Below, one piece after another: positions 13,495-29,613 of a stretch of 47,059 nt of DNA. The notes beneath the pieces are model-generated. The model was not told the origin of the DNA. It saw only the letters and a list, made by a program, of their open reading frames with translations, and did not search any database. The stretch is from NCBI GenBank assembly GCA_024693545.1, contig JAILKT010000016.1, positions 1 to 47,059 of the forward strand. Direction: 5' to 3'. This DNA comes from Lachnospiraceae bacterium (GTDB lineage Bacteria; Bacillota; Clostridia; Lachnospirales; Lachnospiraceae). A program made the position numbers and the translations under genes. Numbering within the stretch: the stretch's first letter is position 1; the number at the start of each line of letters is the position of its first letter.

Positions 13495-16092
13495 CTACTC
13501 TTCCGTCTTACTATCAAACCAAAGAGCCTTATCTGCGACTATTCCGTCACGTTTAATATCAAGAGTGTTCAGAGTCTCTTTGAACGATTCCGGCTTACAA
13601 CCCAAAAGTATACAGTTTGCCGAGAACAGACTCATATCCATAGCTGCATTGTCTATAGTTATATCAGCTTGCAGATCGCGGCATCCCATTCCCGTAGCGG
13701 TATTACCCTCGATCGTGAGCGACAGTCTGCAGTGCCTGCAATCTATCGAAAGATTACCCTTCATAGCGCCTATAGCCACTATATTTGAACCCTTTATCAT
13801 TATATGAACACTACAGTCGCTGATCGTGATATCGCCCCGGGTCTTCTCGATCGCTCCTATACCTGTCACATGATTGCCCGCGCCGACAATATTAAGCGAT
13901 GTTCCGTAGATATGCGTATCCTGTTCTCCGAAGAGCGATCCTATCATCGTTCCCTTGTCAATTCCTATATTGATCGAGATATCCATATTGCTGATATATA
14001 CCGGCGGCTTATCCTGATACGAACCGATGCAGACACAATTGGAAGCTGCGCAGCTGCTCTTAAATGAACCGGATCTAAGGTCGATCGCCTTCTCTCTGTC
14101 GGACGATTTTCCACCGATGCATATACAGTTTTCGCCGCTGATATTAATTTCAAGCACACCCGACATTTCCGACTCGATCTTCCCGAATGTGCTGCGGTAA
14201 TCGTTGCCGATACCATAGGCGTTGGTAAATGTAGGTTTGATCAATAAGCTTCCGTTTCCTTCGAGCTTAAGCTCAGCACTTCCCGGAACGCGTATGCCGT
14301 TTCCGGTGAATACATTGTTTCCTTCAATATTCAGGATAAGCGAAGACTTCTTCCCCAGATCTATGCACGGCGTAGTATCAACATCTCCGATGCTGACGTT
14401 ATGGATCGTAAGACGGCACTTCGAGCGATCACTGACGCGTATGGAAACAGCCGACACAAACTCCGGATTACCCACCAGCGTAAGGTCGCCGTCCGAAAGC
14501 AACAATACATTGTATTTCTGGAGCGACAGGTCTATAAGCGAAAGCTGCGTTTCATCCTTAACAACATAAACCTTCTGTCTGGAATTATTGGAAACCATAT
14601 CAAGATTGGCTCTGCTTATATGTGAAAGCAATTCGGTGGACAGAGCCGGAAGTAATTGATGTTGCGGCTTTGCCGTAAAATAGCCCTGAATAAGATCTAC
14701 GCCCATTCCGATAACGGCATTGAGTTCCTCAAGCGTTTCAACTCCTTCTGCGAGTGCCAGGAAATCGTTATCATGCGCGAATTGGATGATCGTATTGACA
14801 AAGTGCTGTTTTCTGGGATCGATCTGCAGTTCAGATATAAGAAGCCTGTCGATCTTTACATAATTAGGAAGGAACTTAAGCAGATTTGTCACATTGGAAT
14901 AACCGGTGCCGAAATCATCTACCGCAACCTGGAAACCGTACTTCTGGCAGCGTTCGCTGAGCAGGCCGACGGTAATATCTTCCATGTTGGTTTCTTCCGT
15001 AACCTCTATAACCACCCTGTCAAACATTGACTGATACTTATCCGCAAATACCTGAAACTGTTCATCTGTAAGATAATGTCCGGGAATACTGTTGATGAAA
15101 ACCTTTCGGTTACCAAGTTCATCTTTCAGCTGCGTCATTTTCTCCATGACGTTAAAAAGAGTCAACCTCTCAACATCATCAAGTCTTTTTTCTTCGGTTG
15201 CATATTTCAGCAAAGTCAGAGGCGTCAAACCATACTTTTGAGGCATACGCATAAGTGCCTCATAACCGATTATCTCACCGGTCTTTGCACTGACTATAGG
15301 CTGAAAACAATAGTCGATCTCATTATTATCAAGAATATTATTAACAAGGGTGCGTAAATCGTAATCCTTATCCTGCGCAGTATTTGCTACATAGCGGCCG
15401 TTCACTGCATCAGCTACGGGATCGGACGCACATATGCGGCTTTTCATCTCATTTATGAAGAAGTTAAGCGCGATCCAAGTATATACAGAATAATAATATC
15501 CGTTCTCATCACAGCCGTTATTCATATATTCGCATGCCTTATCCAAAGTCACGAGCATGTAGTCCCCGATACGTTCGGCTTCCTCATTGCCGGAATATGT
15601 GATCATGCAAGTATCGGTAATATGTACATGTGCGCAAACAATGGCATTGCTTTCATCTGTAAGTCCGGGCGTACTGAACAACAGCGGATTGATGATGGAG
15701 ATTCTGTCACCGTGGGTGATCTCTATACCTGTTTCTTCACGAATCTCTCGTATTGCAGCTGAGATCACAGGATTAGATTTTTCAAGATCTGCTTTATCGA
15801 TCAATCCTGCCGGTACGCTGATAAGTGGTCTTCCGGCGGGATACCTGAACTCATGGGTAAGCAGAAGTCTCGGCTCCTGCTCCGGCATCTCAACGATCAC
15901 AATACAGCTGACCGCATCCGGTATCATATTGACAAACTCTTGTTTATCTTTAATTGCGACAAGATTATCAGCCTTACGTCTGGTAGCATTATAATAATGT
16001 TTTCCTTCAGCATATCTGTAATCAAAAACATTAACATAATCCGACGCAAATTCTGTTCTGACCATGTCTTGCGTTATTTTTAAATCATCCAT
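13495..16092 (-). CDS. NUDIX - EAL (c-di-GMP phosphodiesterase) - C-terminal beta-helix-like repeat protein
   Basis: NUDIX-like REIREETGI; EAL motifs EALMRMP, EVTEETN, DDFGTGYSN, KIDRLLI, AEGVET, LIQGYF; C-terminal short beta repeats (GNGIRVPGSAELKLEGNGSL...). Confidence 0.85.
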   Translation of the reverse strand: MDDLKITQDMVRTEFASDYVNVFDYRYAEGKHYYNATRRKADNLVAIKDKQEFVNMIPDAVSCIVIVEMPEQEPRLLLTHEFRYPAGRPLISVPAGLIDKADLEKSNPVISAAIREIREETGIEITHGDRISIINPLLFSTPGLTDESNAIVCAHVHITDTCMITYSGNEEAERIGDYMLVTLDKACEYMNNGCDENGYYYSVYTWIALNFFINEMKSRICASDPVADAVNGRYVANTAQDKDYDLRTLVNNILDNNEIDYCFQPIVSAKTGEIIGYEALMRMPQKYGLTPLTLLKYATEEKRLDDVERLTLFNVMEKMTQLKDELGNRKVFINSIPGHYLTDEQFQVFADKYQSMFDRVVIEVTEETNMEDITVGLLSERCQKYGFQVAVDDFGTGYSNVTNLLKFLPNYVKIDRLLISELQIDPRKQHFVNTIIQFAHDNDFLALAEGVETLEELNAVIGMGVDLIQGYFTAKPQHQLLPALSTELLSHISRANLDMVSNNSRQKVYVVKDETQLSLIDLSLQKYNVLLLSDGDLTLVGNPEFVSAVSIRVSDRSKCRLTIHNVSIGDVDTTPCIDLGKKSSLILNIEGNNVFTGNGIRVPGSAELKLEGNGSLLIKPTFTNAYGIGNDYRSTFGKIESEMSGVLEINISGENCICIGGKSSDREKAIDLRSGSFKSSCAASNCVCIGSYQDKPPVYISNMDISINIGIDKGTMIGSLFGEQDTHIYGTSLNIVGAGNHVTGIGAIEKTRGDITISDCSVHIMIKGSNIVAIGAMKGNLSIDCRHCRLSLTIEGNTATGMGCRDLQADITIDNAAMDMSLFSANCILLGCKPESFKETLNTLDIKRDGIVADKALWFDSKTEE

Positions 16093-16317
16093 CAAGTTAC
16101 TCCATCCCAAAAAACTTCAATTACAATTACGATTCATGTAATTTTCACGACCACTTTTTTTATTATCTTGTCCGACCATGTCAGACATCATATTATTATA
16201 TAATAATTTCAAGCATTTGAAAACAATGTTTTTTTTCATAAAATTCGTTGCGGTCCATAATCCCAAACATCCTCGCGGCCAGCCCCGCGATGTAACGCGC
16301 CGTCTCGCACAGACAGT

Positions 16318-17181: not shown

Positions 17182-17453
17182 CATTCCGATGCATTTTTAT
17201 ACGATACTTCATAGCCAATAGCCATGGTCTGTTTTGATGTATATATTATAGCTTGTCCTCCCTTGGTAATGTCAATTGATTATAGGGATATATGTGACGA
17301 AATCCAGCAAGTATTTAATAATACCCGCCCGAATTCTTAAAACACCTCCGAAAAGTAGCGCAACAACTCAGATTTACTATTCAGAAAGCCTTATTTCGAT
17401 GTGGTCAGTATTATAAGATGTTTGAAGTCAATAATTAACGGAAGCGTTCAGCG

Positions 17454-17879
17454 AAATTGCGTCCAATAGAAAATGAATGCCCTCTGTGGACCACATTTTA
17501 GAGGTGTTTTTGCCAAAATTTCGCATTGATTTCGTATTGGACGCAATTTACCTATTTTCATCGGAAAGAGTAAAAAAAATGCGTCCACACGAACGATTGA
17601 TTTCGTATTGGACGCATTCTACCATATAAGCACTCCTGAAGCGTTCGCCGCAGCAAAGCTAAACATGAGTTCAGTAAAATTGCGTCCAATAGAAAATGAA
17701 TGCCCTCTGTGGACCACATTTTAGAGGTGTTTTTGCCAAAATTTCGCATCGATTTCGTATTGGACGCAATTTTCCTATTTTCATCGGAAAGAGTAAAAAA
17801 AATGCGTCCACACGAACGATTGATTTCGTATTGGACGCATTCTACCATATAAGCACTCCTGAAGCGTTCGCCGCAGCGA
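17454..17879. repeat. Direct duplication (223-bp period, about 203-bp copies) of a structured MITE-like sequence
   Basis: 17454-17656 repeated at 17677-17879; each copy holds inverted repeats AAATTGCGTCCAATA/TATTGGACGCAATTT and AATGCGTCCA/TGGACGCATT. Confidence 0.9.
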
Positions 17880-17983
17880 AGGCTTCTGACCCGTAGTAAA
17901 AGTTGCCACGCTTCAAGGCAACTTTTGCGGAGGGCAGCGACGTAACGAAGTTACGTCGGCGGCTTTAGCCGCCACCTCGAGCA

Positions 17984-18017: not shown

Positions 18018-18038
18018 TCGAGGTGACTGGACTTGAAC
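18018..18038. repeat. attL: 21-bp direct repeat of the tRNA-Pro 3' end
   Basis: TCGAGGTGACTGGACTTGAAC, identical to 29539-29559. Confidence 0.92.
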
Positions 18039-18224
18039 TATAAAACTCATTCTGAAAGCCTTATATGAACAGATTTCCAAAACGAAGTCTACAACAAAGT
18101 CTACAAATCTACGAAAGGAGATTGCACAGTCTCTTTTTTAATGTTCTACATAGAGTTCAAACGAATGCAACCTTCAACTCGTGCTGAATACAGTATGTCT
18201 TATGAGAGAACAAGAACGATAAGA

Positions 18225-18254
18225 TTGTAATCATTGTCTTGTTCGGTGTATAAT
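18225..18254 (+). promoter_or_regulatory. Sigma-A-like promoter for the 77-aa ORF
   Basis: TTGTAA - 18 bp - TATAAT; GAAAGGAG at about 18293. Confidence 0.6.
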
Positions 18255-18309
18255 CAAAATAGTAATATAAAAACATCAAAAGAGAAAATGACGAAAGGAG
18301 ACAAAGAGT

Positions 18310-18543
18310 ATGACGGCTGAACAGGCATTGTTTGAAAAGGTGAGAAAGAAACATTCCACGTCCGAAACCACATTGAGAGACGATATTGACCGAAGAGCGC
18401 GGGAACAGTACCTAAATACCCATGATACTATACCGACACTTGAAGAGATAGATGAAGTCATTAACGAATATAGGAAGGGTGAAGCAAAAGGCGGTGGAAC
18501 TATTCCCGTGGCAGATGATAAAGCAGACATAGACACCCGTTAA
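18310..18543 (+). CDS. Small charged hypothetical protein of the element
   Basis: 77 aa, promoter and RBS upstream, first gene inside attL. Confidence 0.65.
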   Translation: MTAEQALFEKVRKKHSTSETTLRDDIDRRAREQYLNTHDTIPTLEEIDEVINEYRKGEAKGGGTIPVADDKADIDTR

Positions 18544-18560
18544 TTCCTTCTTACGAAAAC

Positions 18561-18647
18561 GCCCCGAGCGGAGCAGGATATAGTCTCAGTCCTGCCCTGC
18601 AATGATAGGCGGGTGAAAACCGATTGACGCTATGCGGGAATCGGGGT
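18561..18647. ncRNA. Candidate structured RNA (or folded DNA site), three-way junction
   Basis: P1 GCCCCGA/TCGGGGT, P2 GCAGGA/TCCTGC, P3 CCTGCA/TGCGGG with inner ATAG(g)CG/CGCTAT; strand unknown. Confidence 0.4.
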
Positions 18648-18662
18648 CTCTATCTACTCGTC

Positions 18663-18821
18663 GTGATTGCTTTGCAATCACTAGAAAACATTTCGATGGG
18701 TCACCGAATGTTTTCGGATAAGAGGTAGTAGAGGTATATCGTGATTGCTTTACAATCACTAGATAAGTGGTAGTAGAGGTATATAGTTCGGAAGTAACTA
18801 TCCGTGATTGTTTACAATCAC
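18663..18821. repeat. Three near-identical hairpins GTGATTGCTTTGCAATCAC plus repeated flanks
   Basis: Copies near 18663, 18741 and 18804, each followed by TAG; GATAAG(A/T)GGTAGTAGAGGTATAT also duplicated. Confidence 0.85.
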
Positions 18822-19087
18822 TAGTTCAATTCAATCTCTTGTTCTTTATCTTGCTCCTTAAAGTCCTCAAAGGATATAGGACAAGCCTCTCCTTTTTCAT
18901 TATACAATTTAACGAGTTCTACATACGCCTTTTCTGTTTCGCCCCTACCAACGAAGTTATTTAGTGCATAGTTGATTCCATGAGGTCTTACACCGTAACA
19001 ATCTTTATGCCAGTCAGAGAAACAAGAATCGTTATATATTTGACATAGCTCATCTGGAGCGGGCTTGACTCCCCGTATAAGACGCAT
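18821..19087 (-). CDS. Small hypothetical, phage-protein-like (WHKDCYGVRP)
   Basis: 88 aa; overlaps the 3' end of the truncated cpaF-like gene in another frame. Confidence 0.5.
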   Translation of the reverse strand: MRLIRGVKPAPDELCQIYNDSCFSDWHKDCYGVRPHGINYALNNFVGRGETEKAYVELVKLYNEKGEACPISFEDFKEQDKEQEIELN

Positions 19088-19970
19088 TTAAGAGGTATGA
19101 CGCTTCCGCACCTTTTATCTCACCGATGATGAATATATCCACATCACTCGTAAGACCCGCTATGGAAAGGTCTTTAAGGTCATACCTGACTGCGTTCTCA
19201 CCAACGCCCTCGAATGAGTGCAAGAACATCATATCGGGATGTCTCTTCGTTGTGAGTTCGTCCGCTTGCTGGATAACGAGTACGGAACGATTATCGGGTA
19301 TCCTTTCCTTTAAGGCATTGAGTAGTGTCGTCTTTCCGCACGCATTAGCCCCGCATATGAGGATAGAACCTTTTGTCCATTGATTTATCAGATAATCACT
19401 CATTTGCGGTGTGAGCATTTTCGCATTTACAAGGTCTTCCATTTCGGGAAAATCGAGTAATGATTTACGGATTACGAGTTTGAACTTCTTATCGGAAGTA
19501 AGGAACGGTGTGTAGAGCGTAAATCTGAGGATACAACCGTCGATACTCGAATCGTCAACAAACCTCTGTATCGCATTTTGTGTACTTGTATTTACCTTAT
19601 TTCGAGTGATTACACCACTTACGAAACGGTCATATTCTTCTTCACTGTCGAATGTCACATCGGAACTCATTCTCTGCCCGTTCTTTTTAATAGTGATGTG
19701 GTTATAATCATACAGTTTGATATCCGTTATCTCTTTATCGTAGATAAGGCTCGTGATGATGTTATAACCGAGTACGTTGTTGATTATGGCATCCGCAAGG
19801 TCTTCGGCATTATCGTTAGGGAAATACTTTACCGCATCCGCAATCAGTTTTTCCCTAAATTCTTCCTTACTCCGTTTCTTATCTCTGACATCAAAGAGGA
19901 ATTTTGAGTTTTCACTCTCCTTTGTGTACATTCCGAGAAGTGCGTCATAACTTACTTTGTTTACTTTCAT
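19050..19970 (-). CDS. CpaF/TadA-like secretion ATPase, C-terminally truncated
   Basis: Walker A GANACGKTTLLNAL, Walker B IFIIGEIKGAEASYLLNASYTG, then abrupt stop (SQARSR*); likely start MKVNKVSYD at 19970. Confidence 0.85.
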   Translation of the reverse strand: MKVNKVSYDALLGMYTKESENSKFLFDVRDKKRSKEEFREKLIADAVKYFPNDNAEDLADAIINNVLGYNIITSLIYDKEITDIKLYDYNHITIKKNGQRMSSDVTFDSEEEYDRFVSGVITRNKVNTSTQNAIQRFVDDSSIDGCILRFTLYTPFLTSDKKFKLVIRKSLLDFPEMEDLVNAKMLTPQMSDYLINQWTKGSILICGANACGKTTLLNALKERIPDNRSVLVIQQADELTTKRHPDMMFLHSFEGVGENAVRYDLKDLSIAGLTSDVDIFIIGEIKGAEASYLLNASYTGSQARSR

Positions 19971-20027
19971 TCTTACCCTTTCTTTTGGGGAGGGAAAGAC
20001 TGCGCTCTCTCCCTCTCCCATTTAATC

Positions 20028-23000
20028 TTACTGGTCTACTATTACCGTGTGTACTCCGTCATGGATACTCTTTGTGAGGTCTACCGTAAATCCTATCCCG
20101 TCCTGTTTACGTACACCATCATGTTCCGCTATGAGCGATAATGTGTAATTTGACGAGGCGTTACTTTCGGGTATAAGGAATACATATACGACTTCACATT
20201 TGTTCTTGTATTCCGTGTATATAACATTCACGGTACTAAGGTCTTCACTATGGACAGTTCCTACAACGCTATCGTATGTACCTTCCCTAAAGACGTTTAG
20301 AGGCGTCATGGAAGGTGTAAATAGTGACTGCACGGAATCCGCACCACCGAGTATCGTTGCCGTTACATATACCGCTTCTCCTAAACAGAAATTACTCTTT
20401 GCTACTCTGTCGGTATAACTTCCGATACTCGTTATCTTAATCTGAAGGTCACCGAAGTTATCGATATACTCCGTTACGTTTCCGAGTTTGTCTTCGAGAT
20501 GTACTTCTATGGAGAATCCGTTCTTAAAGAGGTTCTCACTCGTGTTGACCGTAACATTTCCGAAGTCGATATAATCTATCCTTCCGTAAGCATCAATATG
20601 AGGTGTTCCCGTGAGAGAACGCTCTGCTCCGCTCTTACGGTTTGTTATCTTTACAGTCGTTTTCGTACTGTCAAGACCAACGAAATAGTTATTTCCCGAA
20701 AGCGGATTGTCACGGGCGATATAATGACTTGTCTTACCGTTTAAGGCTTCCGAGTCCTTTCCGTTTGCTTCGTATATCGCTTTGAAATCATTAGTACCCG
20801 TAAAGTCAAGCCTCGGGGCTTCTCTGTCAAAGACGAGTTGATAACTCTGACTATCCGTTATCACTTCATTCTTTGAGGTATGTCTGTCGTTCCATCTGTC
20901 CGTGTATCTCCACGAAGAAGTAAGTATCCGACTTGTTCCCGTTTCGCCGCTTACGGAAACGCTACTATTTGTAAATATCTCCGTCTTCTTATAATCACCG
21001 CCTGCCTGTACTAGTGAATACGACAGTCCGTTACTCTTATCGTAAACAGTACCCGCATCACTTACACGGTAGTAATCAACCGTAGTATATGAGGGTGTTC
21101 TTATCGAGAAGTTTATCGTAGGCGTATAAGGACTACTACCTTTGAGATAATAAACGGGATATCCCGACAAAGGAATGTCACTGTAAACGTAATTTCCTCT
21201 GAACCCGATTTCCTTTGTTATCACGGGATTGACGTGTTTCCATATTGCTACGAATGTTACCGTTGACCTGTCATTAGTAGTCAGATTACGAAGAGATGTT
21301 CCCGCGGGAAGTCTGACCGCAACACTACTACTCGGGTCTGTATTCGTAGAACACGTATAAGATGTACTTCCGCTATATGGTTGCCAACCGAGGAAAGTAT
21401 ATCCTTCCCTACTTACATTCGGAAGTGATACGGTATCTTCGTACCTTATGGATTTATTATTACCGCTTACCGTACCGAGATTACCGTCAAATACAACACT
21501 ATACTCTATCGGTTCGTAGTAATAATATCCGCATACACTACAACCGAATTTCCTGTAACCCGTTCTATCGGAAGAAAGAGCATTAAACGCATGAGGTTCT
21601 CTATTTATAATCTCTGTACCCGTAATCTGTCTGTTCATAAGATGATTACATACGGAACAGTATGCGATACCATAAATAACTCTGTTCTTCCAATGCTCCG
21701 TTTCGTTACCGTCTTTCTTTCCGTTTCCGTTATCGTTAAATACCCAGCCCGATATCTCGGTTTCATTTCTTCGTCCGTTACTGTTATGATATTCATAATC
21801 ATCTGCAAGACTTATCGTTTCACTACAAGGACTCGGTGTTCCGTTACAATATTCCCATTTTGAACGGGCGTGATATGTATTGTTATAGTCGTACCAATTT
21901 CCATATGACGTTACCCAACTGTGAGTATGAACTAAACCGCCTCTTTCATTCTCTAACTTTGTGTATCCACAATAACATGTTGAGGTCTTCGTTCTATGGT
22001 AGTATCCATCCGAGCCTGCTGTCCACGAACCATATGATATCGTAAAGGAATGACCACTTTCACTTACTGTATTCTTTTTCGTTTCCTTATAACCGCAATT
22101 CAAGTAACATACCTTATTCACGGTTTCTTCTTTCCAATGCTTCGAATCATTGTATTTCCATCCCGAAACACTTTTGTTTGTTATTACCATGGAATGCGAT
22201 TCATATTCATAACTTGTTTCGAAAGATTGGTTACAAATAAAACATTTCGTAACGACGGGATATCTGTGCTTTGCGCTGTTATAGGATTCAATATCACCTT
22301 TAACTTTTATTTTTTCTGCGGGAATAAAAATCTTTTTTTCTTTTATCAATGAATGCCCGCCGCTACATGCCCTACAATCTGCTTGTGCCGTTGCTGTGTA
22401 TATGTATGTATATCCATGTCCGTCTGAGCCCACGCCATCACAAGCGATTGTCGTACAATTGATGCTAACGGGTTTAAGAGTTACGTTTGCTTCATGCCAC
22501 TTACAAGTAGGGTTAATCAAACTACTTGTTGCCGTTAACATAGGGTGTACGTAATTGTTCCCTATCCATCCACTCGGACCATTCTCATGCCAAGTTATGT
22601 CAAGCGTTAACGCACAACCGCCTGCCGCACCGAAATCAGTACAACCGCAGTCTCTATAAAGAGTTCCGTCTGAATCTTCGCACGTACCGCTCGTACAACT
22701 TCTTCCCGTGAGTTTGAAACCACATTGTTTGCACTCATTATTACTGTTGAACTCACAAGGCACATCTTCACTCCAAGTACCATCACAATACCGACAAGTA
22801 TAAGTCGCTTTGTGTACCTTATTACCGAGGGATTTATATGTGGTCTTGCTATCATCTTTCGTACAACTCGTATTACCGCTGTTTATTATCTTTTTACAGC
22901 CCTTGCATACTTTGTACCAATTATGAGTTCCACCACCGCAACAATACCTCGCCATTTCCGTATTCGGATGAGTACAAGACGCAGAGGGTTTTGTATACCC

Positions 23001-23648
23001 GCAATACTTACATGTATTGCCTTCAAAAGTACAGGCTTTATTTCCTGATTTATATTCCCCACATGCACATGTTGAATAGTAATAATGTGTTCCGTCTCCA
23101 TTTGATGAACGGGACTGAACTTTCCAATCATGTGTATGTGCAGAGGGTTTTGTATATCCACAATACTTACATGTATCACCATTGAAAGTACAACTTGTGT
23201 TCCCTGATTTATATTCCCCACATGCACATGTTGAATAGTAAGAATGCGTTCCATCACCATTCGATGAACGGGACTGAACTTTCCAATCATGTTCATGTGC
23301 GGGTTTTGTATACCCACAATTTGTACAAGTATTTCCCGAGAATGCGTGACTTACTACATTCCCATCATCCGAACTCGATGCTCCGCATTTCGAACAACTC
23401 TTATGATACGTACATGTCGAATCATTGTTAGCTGTATAATAGGATGACCAACTATGATTCGTAGAACTATCTACTATGGTAGGTGTACTATTTTTGGGCT
23501 TATCACCATACCGCCATGTATATGTCGTACAACCTTCTGTGGTAGTATAAGTATGCCATGCTGCCCAAATATCTTCCGCAGGAATTATAACACCTATCAG
23601 CAAGGCAAATAAAACTACATATGTTACAGTATTTTTGACCTTCTTCAT
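20028..23648 (-). CDS. Large secreted Cys-rich repeat protein (possible adhesin)
   Basis: 1206 aa; signal-like N-terminus; repeated CxxC/CGYTKP modules including 53-aa tandem repeats; Listeria-Bacteroides (InlB B-type) repeat YSVVFDGNLGTVSGNN...GYTFLGW. Confidence 0.85.
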   Translation of the reverse strand: MKKVKNTVTYVVLFALLIGVIIPAEDIWAAWHTYTTTEGCTTYTWRYGDKPKNSTPTIVDSSTNHSWSSYYTANNDSTCTYHKSCSKCGASSSDDGNVVSHAFSGNTCTNCGYTKPAHEHDWKVQSRSSNGDGTHSYYSTCACGEYKSGNTSCTFNGDTCKYCGYTKPSAHTHDWKVQSRSSNGDGTHYYYSTCACGEYKSGNKACTFEGNTCKYCGYTKPSASCTHPNTEMARYCCGGGTHNWYKVCKGCKKIINSGNTSCTKDDSKTTYKSLGNKVHKATYTCRYCDGTWSEDVPCEFNSNNECKQCGFKLTGRSCTSGTCEDSDGTLYRDCGCTDFGAAGGCALTLDITWHENGPSGWIGNNYVHPMLTATSSLINPTCKWHEANVTLKPVSINCTTIACDGVGSDGHGYTYIYTATAQADCRACSGGHSLIKEKKIFIPAEKIKVKGDIESYNSAKHRYPVVTKCFICNQSFETSYEYESHSMVITNKSVSGWKYNDSKHWKEETVNKVCYLNCGYKETKKNTVSESGHSFTISYGSWTAGSDGYYHRTKTSTCYCGYTKLENERGGLVHTHSWVTSYGNWYDYNNTYHARSKWEYCNGTPSPCSETISLADDYEYHNSNGRRNETEISGWVFNDNGNGKKDGNETEHWKNRVIYGIAYCSVCNHLMNRQITGTEIINREPHAFNALSSDRTGYRKFGCSVCGYYYYEPIEYSVVFDGNLGTVSGNNKSIRYEDTVSLPNVSREGYTFLGWQPYSGSTSYTCSTNTDPSSSVAVRLPAGTSLRNLTTNDRSTVTFVAIWKHVNPVITKEIGFRGNYVYSDIPLSGYPVYYLKGSSPYTPTINFSIRTPSYTTVDYYRVSDAGTVYDKSNGLSYSLVQAGGDYKKTEIFTNSSVSVSGETGTSRILTSSWRYTDRWNDRHTSKNEVITDSQSYQLVFDREAPRLDFTGTNDFKAIYEANGKDSEALNGKTSHYIARDNPLSGNNYFVGLDSTKTTVKITNRKSGAERSLTGTPHIDAYGRIDYIDFGNVTVNTSENLFKNGFSIEVHLEDKLGNVTEYIDNFGDLQIKITSIGSYTDRVAKSNFCLGEAVYVTATILGGADSVQSLFTPSMTPLNVFREGTYDSVVGTVHSEDLSTVNVIYTEYKNKCEVVYVFLIPESNASSNYTLSLIAEHDGVRKQDGIGFTVDLTKSIHDGVHTVIVDQ

Positions 23649-23740
23649 GTCTTTTTTCCTTTCTGTATATTCTCTTCTTTCGGAGTTTCTTTGAAGATTT
23701 TGCCATTACAAAACTTTCTTAAACACTTTTGAGTAATAAT

Positions 23741-23774
23741 AAGAAAAAAAAGAACACCCCGTAGGATGTTCTTT
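23741..23774 (-). terminator. Rho-independent terminator inside the Tad-like gene cluster
   Basis: AAAGAACAtcctacggggTGTTCTTTTTTTTCT on the minus strand. Confidence 0.8.
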
Positions 23775-23792
23775 CCGATATGTATGTCTGTT

Positions 23793-24452
23793 TTAATATT
23801 TTTGGAAATATCTGAGGTCATCAAAGCCTTTATCTATACAGTCCTGTATGTTTAAGCAAGGAACTTGAACACCTACATACATTTTCTCTCCGTCTGTTTT
23901 TTCAATCTCAAATGTCAGTTTAAGTGATACACTGTATGCGTAAAGGTAATTTCCCCATTCGGGATGTGAGATATTAAAGTATGTTCCCGCTTGATTCATG
24001 TGAATATCATGAGCGATATCTTCTATAGGCAAAGGTTCTTTGACATATACGGTAGCCTTATTGTCTTTACACTTGACTACTAACCAATCAAAAGGGTCTG
24101 CGTTCCATTTAATCGTTTCTTCTTCACCGAGGTTATTGTATGTGTAACCGTATATATATCCATTAGAACATAACGACCCGCCGTATTCTTTTACAGAGAG
24201 TTTTGCACCTTCAGGAAAGTTCTTGAATGTAATCTTGAACTTCTCTCCTACTTCAAGGTAATTTCCCGCTTTAAGTTGCTTCCACTTCTTGTCGATGACG
24301 TTTACTATCGACAAATTACTTTTCACGGTCTTATTGAACTTCTTATCCCATGTGTACTTTGACTTCGCCTGTGCATTTGTCGTGGGTAACATACTACACA
24401 CGAGTGACAGAGCAACCACTACACCGAGTAACCTTCCGAGTATCTTTTTCAT
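23793..24452 (-). CDS. Secreted hypothetical protein
   Basis: 219 aa, signal peptide MKKILGRLLGVVVALSLVCSMLPTTNAQA. Confidence 0.8.
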   Translation of the reverse strand: MKKILGRLLGVVVALSLVCSMLPTTNAQAKSKYTWDKKFNKTVKSNLSIVNVIDKKWKQLKAGNYLEVGEKFKITFKNFPEGAKLSVKEYGGSLCSNGYIYGYTYNNLGEEETIKWNADPFDWLVVKCKDNKATVYVKEPLPIEDIAHDIHMNQAGTYFNISHPEWGNYLYAYSVSLKLTFEIEKTDGEKMYVGVQVPCLNIQDCIDKGFDDLRYFQKY

Positions 24453-24506
24453 AATAATCTCCTTTATGTTGAGTAGTATCTCTACTTCGTTTCTGTGTAT
24501 ATTATC

Positions 24507-25115
24507 TCATAATAAGATAAAACTGTCGAGGGTTATCGTACAGATAAACCCTAGAAACAGAGCGGGAATGAAAGGAAATTTAAGTCCTTTCTTCCTCGTT
24601 TTTATATAAGTCCTTACATGAACTACCGATTGTATCATATATCCGATTAAAAATCCTATCATTACGGTGAGCGGATTTCCATAGCATAGTCCGTAAAGAC
24701 AATAACCCGTCATGAGAACCGTATCCGCAAATCCTCTTGTCTTAAAGGTTGCTATCGTAAATATCAGAGGAAGTAATTCAAATATCAAGTCCGCGGGTAA
24801 CACAAACCGTCCCGAAAATATCTGAATGATACATACTACCGTTCCGTAAAGGACGGGCGGGTATATGAGCCAGCCATATACCATTTTCGTGTGATAATCC
24901 ATATCCGCAGATACCGCAGAGAAGATTATCAATACATAAAGCCATATCAGAGCAGATAAACCGAGTTTGTCCGTAAGGAAAGCGTATAAGCCTATAGTCA
25001 GTCCGATTAGTCCGAGTATGTCCCAAGGGCATAGGGCGCTCGTCCGATAAGACAGCCCTTCGGATTTCCTTGCCTTTTCTGATAACGCTTTTAAGAATGC
25101 AAGTCCAAACATCAT
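24507..25115 (-). CDS. A24-type prepilin peptidase (TadV/CpaA-like)
   Basis: polytopic, SADMDYHTKMVYGWLIYPP and GFADTVLM, KFPFIPALFLG. Confidence 0.8.
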   Translation of the reverse strand: MMFGLAFLKALSEKARKSEGLSYRTSALCPWDILGLIGLTIGLYAFLTDKLGLSALIWLYVLIIFSAVSADMDYHTKMVYGWLIYPPVLYGTVVCIIQIFSGRFVLPADLIFELLPLIFTIATFKTRGFADTVLMTGYCLYGLCYGNPLTVMIGFLIGYMIQSVVHVRTYIKTRKKGLKFPFIPALFLGFICTITLDSFILL

Positions 25116-25288
25116 TCTGTCCCTTCCACAGTCAAGATATTCTCCATACTACGCATGTATTCCTGCATACTCGGAAGAACTTGTTTTAAGGAATAAATAT
25201 CGGACGGGTCTATCTTACGTAAGGCTCGGTACATATCCGTTCTTAATTCTTCTATCTTCATTTGTGTTTCTACACTCATCTCTTTCAT
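25112..25288 (-). CDS. 58-aa hypothetical protein (missing from ORF track)
   Basis: MKEMSVETQMKIEELRTDMYRALRKIDPSDIYSLKQVLPSMQEYMRSMENILTVEGTE*, ATGA overlaps with both neighbours. Confidence 0.7.
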   Translation of the reverse strand: MKEMSVETQMKIEELRTDMYRALRKIDPSDIYSLKQVLPSMQEYMRSMENILTVEGTE

Positions 25289-25995
25289 GCCGCCACCAAA
25301 TCAATCCATACTCTGTAACCAAGGGATAACATACTGATTATCTTATCCGCATCCTTTTCGTTTACGGTTATATCAAAAGAAGTCGCAAGTCTTATCGTAT
25401 CATCATTCGGAATCACAATTCCGTCCGCATCATATACGGCGTCAAGTACAAGTCCCGCATATGTTTCGGATAGTGCCGTGAAGACTGCCGCCTTTTCCTC
25501 ATTTCCGTCTTCTTCCGTAGTCTGTGTTTCCTCTTTATAGGATGTGGGTATCAGATACAAGTCAATCTTATCACTCGCCCTCAGTCTTCCGTTCACCGCT
25601 TGAGAGATATCCTCAACTCTTATCGAAAGTGTTCGACTGTCTTCATCCTTTAAGGGTAAATCACCAAAACGGTCAGTCGTACAAAGTGTTCGTTCCGATA
25701 CATCACTTAAAACATATTTCCCTAAAAGTGAATCCGCATCAAGAACACAGTTCTCGGGTACTACGTCTTTATTGATGTTGAGAGTGGTGAACACCGACAA
25801 GTCCTTTATCTGTGTTCCCTTACCGAGAGATGTGTTGAACGCAAGATAAACTTGTGTGTCATGCTTACTCAGTATCGAATCCTCAACGAATATGAGCAAT
25901 CCCCAAATACTGACAGCCAATACTATAGCGATGATACCCGCTACGAGATAACCCTTTGCGGAACGCTCTTTACTCTTCTTCTTTATTTTCTCCAT
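25285..25995 (-). CDS. CpaB/RcpC-like protein (SAF-type)
   Basis: N-terminal TM then SAF-like region, typical position in Tad loci. Confidence 0.7.
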   Translation of the reverse strand: MEKIKKKSKERSAKGYLVAGIIAIVLAVSIWGLLIFVEDSILSKHDTQVYLAFNTSLGKGTQIKDLSVFTTLNINKDVVPENCVLDADSLLGKYVLSDVSERTLCTTDRFGDLPLKDEDSRTLSIRVEDISQAVNGRLRASDKIDLYLIPTSYKEETQTTEEDGNEEKAAVFTALSETYAGLVLDAVYDADGIVIPNDDTIRLATSFDITVNEKDADKIISMLSLGYRVWIDLVAA

Positions 25996-26146
25996 TGTAA
26001 ATTACCTCATTCTGATGTTTACGAAATCCTTTGGGAACTATAAGTACCTTACACCACGGACAACGCATTTTTTCTACGTCACTACAGGGAAGTTCGTTCC
26101 CGCAAGACGGACAATCAAACAATTTCTTACTCTTACTCTTCTTCAT
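25970..26146 (-). CDS. 58-aa zinc-ribbon protein (missing from ORF track)
   Basis: MKKSKSKKLFDCPSCGNELPCSDVEKMRCPWCKVLIVPKGF..., two CxxC pairs, overlaps next gene. Confidence 0.7.
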   Translation of the reverse strand: MKKSKSKKLFDCPSCGNELPCSDVEKMRCPWCKVLIVPKGFRKHQNEVIYNGENKEEE

Positions 26147-26155
26147 ACCTCTCCT

Positions 26156-26752
26156 TTACTTTAATGCAACCGTCATCTCTTTATGGTTAGCATACTCAAT
26201 TCCCATGAACCTTATGGGATAAATCATGTTCACATAACAACTCGTTTTCTCAATCACCGTTCCGTTCGGAGTGACGGGAGAAGTGTTCTGTTCATAAAAC
26301 TTCTTCTCTACACTCACACCGTTAGATGTGTATTCGTGTATCAGCCACTTTCCCGTTACATCCTTACAGTAATATATCGTTTTAGGCAGATATATCGTAG
26401 TCTGTGAAGAACCACTCAGTCTGAAACCGCTTGTCGTTATCCCGCCGATGTTATACGGAACTCTTTCATAATTGAAGTTTAATTCCAAAAGGTGACATAA
26501 CGAATTGTAATTTTCACAATTATGTTTCACAAACTCTGAAATCATATGCTCTTTATCGAGAGCATGTGACGGTCTGTCGTAAATCATACTACCGAGAACG
26601 GAAGCCGTTATCTCGTCTTCGGCAATCTCGGCATCACCCGTGATACGATACCAACCGAGTATCATGAGCATGAGTGTAAGTGCCGTCATGATGATATACA
26701 CCCCAAGTAACCATGAATATCCTTCATACTTTTTTCGTAACTTCTCTGTCAT
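26156..26752 (-). CDS. Tad-associated pseudopilin-like membrane protein
   Basis: 198 aa, single N-terminal TM, in operon. Confidence 0.65.
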   Translation of the reverse strand: MTEKLRKKYEGYSWLLGVYIIMTALTLMLMILGWYRITGDAEIAEDEITASVLGSMIYDRPSHALDKEHMISEFVKHNCENYNSLCHLLELNFNYERVPYNIGGITTSGFRLSGSSQTTIYLPKTIYYCKDVTGKWLIHEYTSNGVSVEKKFYEQNTSPVTPNGTVIEKTSCYVNMIYPIRFMGIEYANHKEMTVALK

Positions 26753-26761
26753 GATACTCCT

Positions 26762-27178
26762 CTAGTGCTTTGCGATGGAATCTTGACTCGTGTGGAATGT
26801 CTGTACATCCCCGAATAATCCGTCTATTCCCGAAATGTCGAGGTCTGCCGAATCACATGTTACGGTCAGGTCAAAATTTACATACTCTCCATAACCTACT
26901 TTTCTGTTAGTTCCGTTGTATCTGATATCTATCACGGCATTCGGAAACTGCTCTCTTATCTTATTCGTTATGAGTGTTCTGTCCGAAGAAGTCAGTTCCC
27001 CTTGTTCTTCGAGAAGTAATATCGCCGTTCTTCCGATACGTTCTACAGACCTACTCAGACTAAGAATCTGCGTGTACTGAATGGTCACAACGAGAATAGT
27101 CATGAGAAGTACCATACACATAGCAGTACCGAGGATATCTCCAATGCTTCCTTTATATTTTCTGTACAGTAATCTCAT
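26762..27178 (-). CDS. TadE/F-like pseudopilin
   Basis: 138 aa, N-terminal GSIGDILGTAMCMVLLMTILVVTIQ hydrophobic helix. Confidence 0.7.
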   Translation of the reverse strand: MRLLYRKYKGSIGDILGTAMCMVLLMTILVVTIQYTQILSLSRSVERIGRTAILLLEEQGELTSSDRTLITNKIREQFPNAVIDIRYNGTNRKVGYGEYVNFDLTVTCDSADLDISGIDGLFGDVQTFHTSQDSIAKH

Positions 27179-27198
27179 GACCGTTCTCTCCTTCTCCG

Positions 27199-27444
27199 TT
27201 AGGGTGTACTGTGGCTAATACCACCATTAAGCGAATCAAGGTCGGTTTTCGCACCGTTGAGCAAACTCTCTACGGTAGCGTAAATCTTATCCTTAAAGAT
27301 AAGAAGTACAGCAACAACGACGATGATAAGTCCAACGGCGACTACGATACCGTCAATACCCTCTCTCTTCTTCGATAAGGCAACCTTTGTACGTATCATT
27401 GCGTCAGTAACCTTCGCCTTCATGGAATTGAAAATCTTACTCAT
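27199..27444 (-). CDS. Flp-type pilin-like protein
   Basis: 81 aa from MSKIFNSMKAK; KKREGIDGIVVAVGLIIVVVAVLLIF helix; tool ORF start at 27630 is probably too early. Confidence 0.75.
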   Translation of the reverse strand: MSKIFNSMKAKVTDAMIRTKVALSKKREGIDGIVVAVGLIIVVVAVLLIFKDKIYATVESLLNGAKTDLDSLNGGISHSTP

Positions 27445-27461
27445 AATTTTTTCTCCTTCTA

Positions 27462-28169
27462 TTATAATTGTGATGTGAGACTCACAATGAATCTCCAAAA
27501 TACAAATCCGATACCGTCTGCGAATAAAATGAGCATCGCAATAGTTGAGGTTCGGTCGAGATGTCCTTTCTTTGCACTGAAAGCGGAATCTCTGTTTGTA
27601 AGACACTGTTTCGACAGGTCTCGACTGCACTCTATCATTCTTCCCGTTTCAAGTCCTTGCTTTAGTACCGTACATAACGCAAGTATCTCTTCGGAAGTGA
27701 ACTTTTCGGAAAAGTCGTCAATATTTTCCGTAATGGTAAGGTCATTACACTTTAAGTGGATATCAAACTCTTCAAGTGCCTTTTTAAGTCTCGGTGTATA
27801 TACGATATCCCTACATTCCGCAAGGGCGATACCGACATATTCACCACCCGTTACCTGTATGGACAGAGCCGAAGATATAGTCATTACGTCCTGTATCATC
27901 TTATTGTTATCACTCTTATCAGTCTTTCCGAAGTACCAGTCGGGAAGAAACGCACCGAGGATACCAAAGGGACACAGATAGACCGAAATCAAGGATAACG
28001 AGAGTGCTACGATTACTACCATTCCTAAACATAACAGAATGTACATATGCGGTTTTAAGAACGACGGGTGATGAAATTCCACACCCTCGGCTCGTAACTT
28101 CATACGTTTCCTTGCCCAGTTGAACCTACTCGTTGTGTCCTGTACACGTCCGTCTATCCATGCAAACAC
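27462..28169 (-). CDS. TadB/TadC-like T2SF-domain inner-membrane protein
   Basis: 235 aa, GTG start, MIQDVMTISSALSIQVTGGEYVGIALAECRD, flanking TM. Confidence 0.75.
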   Translation of the reverse strand: MFAWIDGRVQDTTSRFNWARKRMKLRAEGVEFHHPSFLKPHMYILLCLGMVVIVALSLSLISVYLCPFGILGAFLPDWYFGKTDKSDNNKMIQDVMTISSALSIQVTGGEYVGIALAECRDIVYTPRLKKALEEFDIHLKCNDLTITENIDDFSEKFTSEEILALCTVLKQGLETGRMIECSRDLSKQCLTNRDSAFSAKKGHLDRTSTIAMLILFADGIGFVFWRFIVSLTSQL

Positions 28170-28251
28170 TTTCTCGCCCGCTTCCGAACGCTGTTAACGA
28201 CAATATTTCCGATGCTATCCTTATCGGGCTTGCGTATATAAAGGAGTTTTC

Positions 28252-29514
28252 ATGAAAGAGAAGTGCGGTCTCTCCCCGCCCTCATTGAAAAAGTGCGAAG
28301 AGTTGTATAAAATGCTCATAGAGACTGTGCAGACCGATATGGAAAGGAGAAACTATCTCAATGAGCATAAATACTCAGTATACACGGATAAACACGGGAA
28401 ATGGATAACTACACTTCCCGCAGATAACAAAGAGGGGCGTAGGATAGTAAGGCGTAACACTCGGGAAGAACTCGAACGGGTGATAACCGATTACTATAGA
28501 GAACATGAAGAGACGGGAATCACTTTAAGTGAGTTATATCCGAAGTGGCTTGAACTCAAAAGAGATGAAACCGCCTCGAAACCTAAGACATTACAGAGGT
28601 ACATTTCGGATTACAATACGTTCCTTAAAGGCAGTAATCTTTCAGAAACTCGGATAAAGGATATCACGCCTGTTATGCTGATAAAGTTCTTCCGAAACGT
28701 AACGAAGTATAGGAGTTATACTTCGAAACGTATAACGGCTCTTAAAGGGTTACTGTCGGGAATACTGTCTTATGCGGTAGAAACGGGGATAATAACCCAC
28801 AATCCCGCTCTTGAAGTGAATATAAGAGGGCTTCCTTACAAACAGGAACAGATAAGATATAAACAAGTATATCGTGAAAGTGATGTCAGAAAATTACTTC
28901 TTCATTTACGGAAAGTAAAAGATATCTATGCTTATGCGATAAGGCTCATGTTCAATCTGTTCTGTAGGATAGGCGAATTAAAGGCGTTAAAATGGTCAGA
29001 TTTCGATTTTGAGGGAAGAACGGTATTTATTCACGCTCAAGTCCTAGAAAGCCAAGAATGGACACAGGAGGGACTCTTGCCGAGGAAATGTACGTACTCG
29101 GGACAGACAAAAGGAAATACTTCACGCGGAGCAAGGTATCAATATCTTACCGATGAAACACTTGAAATCTTAAATGATTTACGGAAAGATATGACGAGTG
29201 AATTTGTTTTTACCGTTAACGGACACTTCTTACTCACGAACATATTTAACAGGCACTTAAAGAGGTACTGCGAAGAAGTAGGTATCCCGTATTATTCTTC
29301 TCATAAGATACGTTTCTATAATGCGAGTGTATCTTATACAGGGGATAATCTTACGGAATTACAGATACTCATGGGACATTCCGAATCATCTACTACTCTG
29401 CATTACTTACGGAATGTACACAAAACTGACTTATCACAGAACTTTACACGTTTAGGTCTACAAGGGTCTACAGACGTGGAGGAAAGCGAAAAAGACGGAA
29501 ACCCTTCGGATTAA
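28252..29514 (+). CDS. Tyrosine-type site-specific integrase
   Basis: R (FCRIGELKALKW), HxxR-type (SHKIRFYN), LMGHSESSTTLHYLR; next to attR. Confidence 0.95.
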   Translation: MKEKCGLSPPSLKKCEELYKMLIETVQTDMERRNYLNEHKYSVYTDKHGKWITTLPADNKEGRRIVRRNTREELERVITDYYREHEETGITLSELYPKWLELKRDETASKPKTLQRYISDYNTFLKGSNLSETRIKDITPVMLIKFFRNVTKYRSYTSKRITALKGLLSGILSYAVETGIITHNPALEVNIRGLPYKQEQIRYKQVYRESDVRKLLLHLRKVKDIYAYAIRLMFNLFCRIGELKALKWSDFDFEGRTVFIHAQVLESQEWTQEGLLPRKCTYSGQTKGNTSRGARYQYLTDETLEILNDLRKDMTSEFVFTVNGHFLLTNIFNRHLKRYCEEVGIPYYSSHKIRFYNASVSYTGDNLTELQILMGHSESSTTLHYLRNVHKTDLSQNFTRLGLQGSTDVEESEKDGNPSD

Positions 29515-29524
29515 AGGATTTCCG
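29489..29524 (-). terminator. Possible element-supplied terminator for tRNA-Pro
   Basis: minus strand CGGAAATCCTT...AAGGGTTTCCG followed by TCTTTTTC. Confidence 0.5.
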
Positions 29525-29538
29525 CCCTCAGTTTCAAG

Positions 29539-29559
29539 TCGAGGTGACTGGACTTGAAC
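29539..29559. repeat. attR: 21-bp direct repeat
   Basis: TCGAGGTGACTGGACTTGAAC at the tRNA-Pro 3' end. Confidence 0.92.
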
Positions 29560-29613
29560 CAGCGACCTCCACGTCCCTAACGTGGCGCTCTAGCCAAACT
29601 GAGCCACACCTCG
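29540..29613 (-). tRNA. tRNA-Pro (AGG)
   Basis: CGAGGTG/CACCTCG acceptor, CCACG-TTAGGGA-CGTGG anticodon arm, GCTGG-TTCAAGT-CCAGT T arm. Confidence 0.93.

Follow-up and report, generated by a model that had tools for sequence, protein, structure and literature searches.

A stretch of 47,059 nt of contig JAILKT010000016.1 of a draft Lachnospiraceae genome (assembly GCA_024693545.1), below called the window, carries an integrative element of about 11.5 kb with a Tad-type pilus operon as cargo. The genome is 84% complete and consists of 172 contigs. We consider it highly probable that this island, which has its own integrase and occupies the 3′ end of a tRNA-Pro(AGG) gene, is a decayed relative of integrative mobilizable elements (IMEs), mobilizable at most in trans, and that its Tad operon is a broken remnant. 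The broken pilus motor is directly visible on this assembly; from the sequence we further infer decay rather than use of the Tad cargo and a present immobility of the element. A phage-type tyrosine integrase of the element would have inserted the island at the tRNA 3′ end, a recombination chemistry assigned because of the integrase family. The incoming attP would have brought along its own copy of the tRNA 3′ end, leaving the tRNA gene intact, and the 21 bp that were displaced would now form the distal boundary.

An insertion at the 3′ end of tRNA-Pro(AGG)

The 21-mer TCGAGGTGACTGGACTTGAAC is present in exactly two copies in the window, at positions 18018 to 18038 and 29539 to 29559, and no such repeat arose in 100 shuffles, even when 3 mismatches were allowed. 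The right copy, the attR core, belongs to the integration target, an intact tRNA-Pro(AGG) gene (29538 to 29613, minus strand; ARAGORN and Rfam), and forms its 3′ end. The distal left copy is the attL core and corresponds to what used to be the tRNA-Pro 3′ end in the empty site. The tRNA-Pro/tRNA-Thr neighborhood was sought in 24 genomes of the genus, and an uninterrupted site was found in four congeners (G023, G017, G011, and G014). In the first three, the left flank of position 18018, including a terminator hairpin, runs straight into an intact tRNA-Pro, and the 21 bp are the sole stretch common to both sides of the junction. The predicted joined sequence showed 88 to 90% identity to these three genomes across the junction, over approximately 200 bp. 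The site is empty in G014, too, where the left flank is more diverged (70%). The uninterrupted attB in congeners shows that the 11.5 kb are an insertion and that attB is the tRNA 3′ end. The G+C content of the element is 0.408, compared to 0.463 for the flanks.

The initial annotation of this DNA had proposed an integrative element at tRNA-Pro, bounded by a perfect 21-bp repeat, and had raised the concerns that related genomes might offer no empty site and that the repeat might be a chance tRNA fragment. This check was made, and the proposal withstood it: congeners possess an empty attB with continuous flanks. In G011, two more copies of the 21-mer with differing tails lie downstream of tRNA-Pro (L084:11283 and L084:14971). 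These copies suggest that the tRNA-Pro site has been used earlier and probably remain from other elements once located there.

The integrase and the mobility of the element

The tyrosine integrase, already recognized inside the right end in the initial annotation, is encoded at 28252 to 29514 (plus strand), and its gene ends 23 bp from the tRNA end. It was identified with PF00589 (E 1.3e-14) and phrog_1 (E 5e-46), and the catalytic residues R-H-R-H-Y are readable as R239, H351, R354, H376, and Y385. Within the 100 bp inside each 21-bp repeat, the repeat search revealed two copies of GTCTACA in the same orientation, at 18086 to 18105 in the left arm and at 29455 to 29472 in the right arm, the latter within the 3′ end of the integrase gene (both plus strand). 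Any 7-mer occurring twice in both arms was obtained in 8 of 20,000 shuffled arm pairs, a test for which GTCTACA had been noticed beforehand. The two pairs look like arm-type sites of the integrase.

The nearest integrases in our family sample share 45% identity and occur in five genomes. In the loci that were read, these integrase genes and those of more distant relatives adjoin tRNA-Leu or tRNA-Gly genes. Several follow a REP_ORF2-G2P, Viral_Rep, or Mob_Pre gene, kinds that serve IMEs as relaxases (PMC5704250). IMG/VR contained no relatives, and the PLSDB plasmids only matches with 21 to 29% identity. By these comparisons, the integrase is nearest to the sort found in mobilizable elements at tRNA genes. 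In agreement with the initial annotation, neither a relaxase nor a type IV secretion system (T4SS) gene was found in the element, and the same holds true for a Rep or rolling-circle replication (RCR)-type initiator and for a recognized excisionase; the largest gap without an assigned gene is 277 bp. Having no relaxase or RCR-type initiator and no room for one, the element is not an IME by the definition as tested.

It is conceivable, though in our view doubtful, that the element is still mobile and excises and is mobilized in trans by a conjugative element via an unrecognized origin of transfer. The integrase is intact and has its catalytic residues, the core repeats are perfect, and the arm repeats are paired, all of which would fit with this possibility, as would the setting of the integrase relatives and the fact that RCR-type initiators are known IME relaxases (PMC5704250). 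The missing relaxase, Rep, and recognized excisionase argue against it, as does the failure to find a second copy of the element among the genomes searched; elsewhere in the element's own draft genome none was found either.

A Tad operon with a broken motor

Besides the rightward integrase gene, the element contains one leftward cluster of Tad-type genes, including one for a 1,206-aa secreted protein, and gene and domain scans upheld this part of the initial annotation. The cluster was further characterized by comparison with its homologs on contig C16 of another genome of the family, G374. It encodes a Flp-type pilin (27199 to 27444; PF16982 E 3.8e-5, below the cut-off, and comparison with G374), a TadE-like pseudopilin (26762 to 27178; E 7e-17 to G374), a TadF-like pseudopilin (26156 to 26752; E 3e-8 to G374), and a CpaB/RcpC-like protein (25285 to 25995; TIGR03177 E 0.00096, below the cut-off; G374 homolog E 6e-27), all on the minus strand. 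A 202-aa membrane protein (24507 to 25115, minus strand) is a probable prepilin peptidase by its motifs (D...K..Y..W and GFAD), and its profile comparison with relatives was not significant.

The genes for the motor and platform are incomplete. Homology of the TadA/CpaF-type ATPase (19050 to 20021, minus strand) ends at approximately position 19068, just past Walker B and immediately ahead of the HIS box, so that about 70 to 75 C-terminal residues are gone; the sequence beyond this point bears no relation to the C-terminal part of TadA. An unrelated open reading frame (ORF; 18821 to 19069, minus strand) without a homolog in 299 genomes of the family adjoins the cut tadA end in an out-of-frame fusion. 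An 88-aa ORF considered as a frameshifted TadA C-terminus was rejected, as it shows no similarity to the C-terminus of TadA from locus L106 or from G374. The TadC-like platform protein (27462 to 28169, minus strand) lacks the N-terminal membrane segment; it aligns from profile position 57 on, and the first ~56 positions are missing. TadB was not found in the whole draft genome (best match, E 0.06). Both cut ends, that of tadA and that of tadC, face the integrase cassette.

In Caulobacter CpaF, which the system cannot do without, the nucleotide pocket is the location of H382 of the HIS box (PMC11300603). The loss of the tadA end, of tadB, and of the tadC start makes it very unlikely that the element alone builds a pilus, and the Tad module very probably cannot work on its own. 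The initial annotation had described a mobile, reduced Tad module and had overlooked the truncation of TadA, the absence of TadB, and the loss of the TadC N-terminus. A reading of this module as reduced but working had to be given up, since TadA ends without its HIS box and C-terminus and no TadB is left, whereas relatives possess full-length TadA.

The giant secreted protein

The 1,206-aa protein (20028 to 23648, minus strand) is rich in cysteine (52 Cys, 11 CxxC motifs), has a signal-like N-terminus, and contains an InlB-type repeat (PF09479); a relative is encoded in locus L252 of G374 (E ~1e-19). In the chromosomal relatives of the operon that were read first, giant secreted proteins of 460 to 1,518 aa follow cpaB, and the InlB-type repeat is also found in the tested chromosomal giants of L106 and L108. 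Direct comparison of the 1,206-aa protein with the chromosomal giants gave only a weak match, which is collinear and C-terminal (E 0.0012, probability 19%), and because of this weak similarity, orthology rests on position and on the InlB repeat shared in some. The protein, probably an adhesin, is a usual partner of this Tad clade, on chromosomes included, rather than a special cargo of the element.

Relatives and origin of the Tad cargo

Within a divergent TadA clade, the window TadA shows approximately 45 to 54% identity to its nearer relatives, as opposed to about 25 to 30% for ordinary TadA. None of the 23 further genus members sampled has a Tad set of this clade. On contig C104, the host (G000) encodes a second TadA of the ordinary type, which is 26% identical to that of the element. 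A search for the TadA clade in IMG/VR gave a single match (28%), and a search for CpaB in PLSDB gave none. The loci L085 to L096, L106 to L110, and L235 to L245 make up a divergent Lachnospiraceae Tad clade whose operons regularly include a giant secreted protein, in some cases one with InlB-type repeats. TadA is full length in the relatives of this clade, and TadB is present, too, wherever the locus could be resolved.

The nearest relatives of the cargo lie on contig G374:C16, whose length is at least 79.8 kb (loci L252, L234, and L248 to L250). In the TadA tree, the window TadA and that of G374 (L234) were grouped with a support of 99/99. The tadC, flp, tadE, tadF, cpaB, and tadA genes and the gene for the InlB-repeat giant protein match those of the window, and tadB is present. 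The contig additionally contains genes for VirD4/TraG, a VirB4-like protein, PrgI, NlpC/P60, ParM, PolIII alpha, and a RecD2-like helicase, as well as tRNA genes; its ends do not overlap. The TadA identity of 52 to 54% and the G+C content of 0.41 in the element versus 0.30 to 0.32 indicate that G374 is kin and not the source. The cargo is a Tad operon of the divergent Lachnospiraceae clade, and its nearest sampled relative adjoins conjugation genes, and it is possible that the Tad set of G374:C16 with its giant InlB-repeat protein is a Tad system of conjugative megaplasmids. On pCY360, a Butyrivibrio proteoclasticus megaplasmid with T4SS genes, a gene for a TadA-like ATPase adjoins a ParM/StbA gene (L251:34427-36289). 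The 45 kb of pCY360 that were examined yielded no other homolog of the element, and the 1,828-aa protein of this plasmid has no Pfam match.

In the chromosomal loci of the clade, tadA comes first (17 of 17), and the resolved order is tadA-tadB-tadC-flp-tadE-tadF-cpaB-giant protein-peptidase, with which 11 further loci agree. In the window the order is tadC-flp-tadE-tadF-cpaB-peptidase-219-aa protein-giant protein-tadA, so that the truncated tadC stands first and the truncated tadA last. This difference, together with the orientation of both cuts toward the integrase cassette, would be explained if a cassette of integrase and attP had entered tadA-tadB-tadC on a circular molecule that was subsequently integrated. 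However, the order in G374 is linear (tadB-tadC-flp-tadE-tadF-cpaB ... tadA), and truncation at both ends of such an operon suffices to explain the window order. Circular permutation as the sole reading of the gene order is weakened accordingly; we regard it as a tentative explanation that is possible but not needed. In the simpler course of events, the Tad operon would have been cut at both ends, with loss of the tadA end, tadB, and the tadC start.

Decay or use of the cargo

Several points weigh against a decayed, immobile remnant. All ORFs between the two cut genes are open, which may point to recent decay or to continued use of the set; TadB could lie in the sequence missing from the draft; a misassembly at the cut points of tadA and tadC is possible; and the junctions of the element are not confirmed by any second copy. 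The open ORFs would also be expected of a satellite that keeps the genes for pilin, pseudopilins, CpaB, peptidase, and adhesin and borrows the motor (TadA and TadB) from a resident Tad system, a helper plasmid, or a co-resident conjugative element. The ordinary TadA of the host would be available for this purpose, and the nearest relatives of the cargo lie on a contig with conjugation genes. We nevertheless consider a satellite improbable, since the motor and platform genes were cut mid-gene with leftover pieces rather than cleanly omitted and since an exchange of parts with a resident TadA of such low identity is doubtful. An assembly artefact, in which the repeat led the assembler to join unrelated pieces of a draft in many contigs, is most improbable because both flanks match the empty site of congeners with the core placed exactly and because no second copy of the element exists elsewhere in the genome.

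Other features of the element and its left flank

Near its left end, the element contains a 77-aa ORF with no assigned function and no Pfam match (18310 to 18543, plus strand) and three short copies of the palindrome-like repeat GTGATTGCTTTGCAATCAC (18661 to 18824). A 219-aa secreted protein without an assigned function, detected in the ORF list and domain scan, is encoded within the Tad cluster (23793 to 24452, minus strand). In the left flank, imperfect repeats are located at 17446 to 17886, where two adjoining stretches match one stretch of G014 (L052) at ~80%. Further to the left, positions 13495 to 16110 encode an 871-aa protein that combines a NUDIX domain at the N-terminus with an EAL domain; its long C-terminal portion has no Pfam match.

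Significance and comparison with known systems

The empty sites prove that a Tad operon entered this lineage by site-specific integration, and in related bacteria the Tad lineage to which the cargo is tied stands beside conjugation genes. A cargo that still functioned would allow adhesion to be passed on in a single step; in this case the truncated motor speaks against it. If the element were a satellite, a surface phenotype could spread without the machine. The element also advises caution, as a gene count alone is insufficient to call a Tad cluster functional.

Like the IMEs at tRNA 3′ ends, such as NBU1 and IME_Sag2603_tRNAlys (PMC5704250), the element has a tyrosine integrase beside a tRNA gene, a direct repeat equal to the tRNA 3′ end, a small size, and no T4SS, and relatives of its integrase (31 to 45% identity) occur in such settings. 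Unlike these IMEs, it has no relaxase or RCR initiator and carries a truncated Tad operon. With the chromosomal Tad loci of the clade it shares homologous TadA, TadC, Flp, TadE, TadF, and CpaB proteins and a giant secreted protein, whereas in those loci tadA is first and full length, TadB is present where resolved, and neither an integrase nor a tRNA boundary turned up in those inspected in detail. The Tad set of G374:C16 is the closest in sequence (TadC, E 9e-41, and giant protein, E 3e-19, besides the TadA and CpaB matches given above) and differs in its intact TadA, the presence of TadB, the low G+C content of 30 to 32%, and the fact that no matching integrase was found there. An earlier example of a mobile element that carries a Tad locus across species is the 54-kb TAD-bearing element of Propionibacterium acnes (PMC3316620). 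The passages of that report covered here describe a 20.2-kb Tad cluster with TadZABC-like genes and parA on a possibly extrachromosomal element, and within them no tRNA-bounded integrase is reported. Both tRNA-bounded islands and Tad loci on mobile elements (PMC3316620) are kinds already known, and what is new here is this member.

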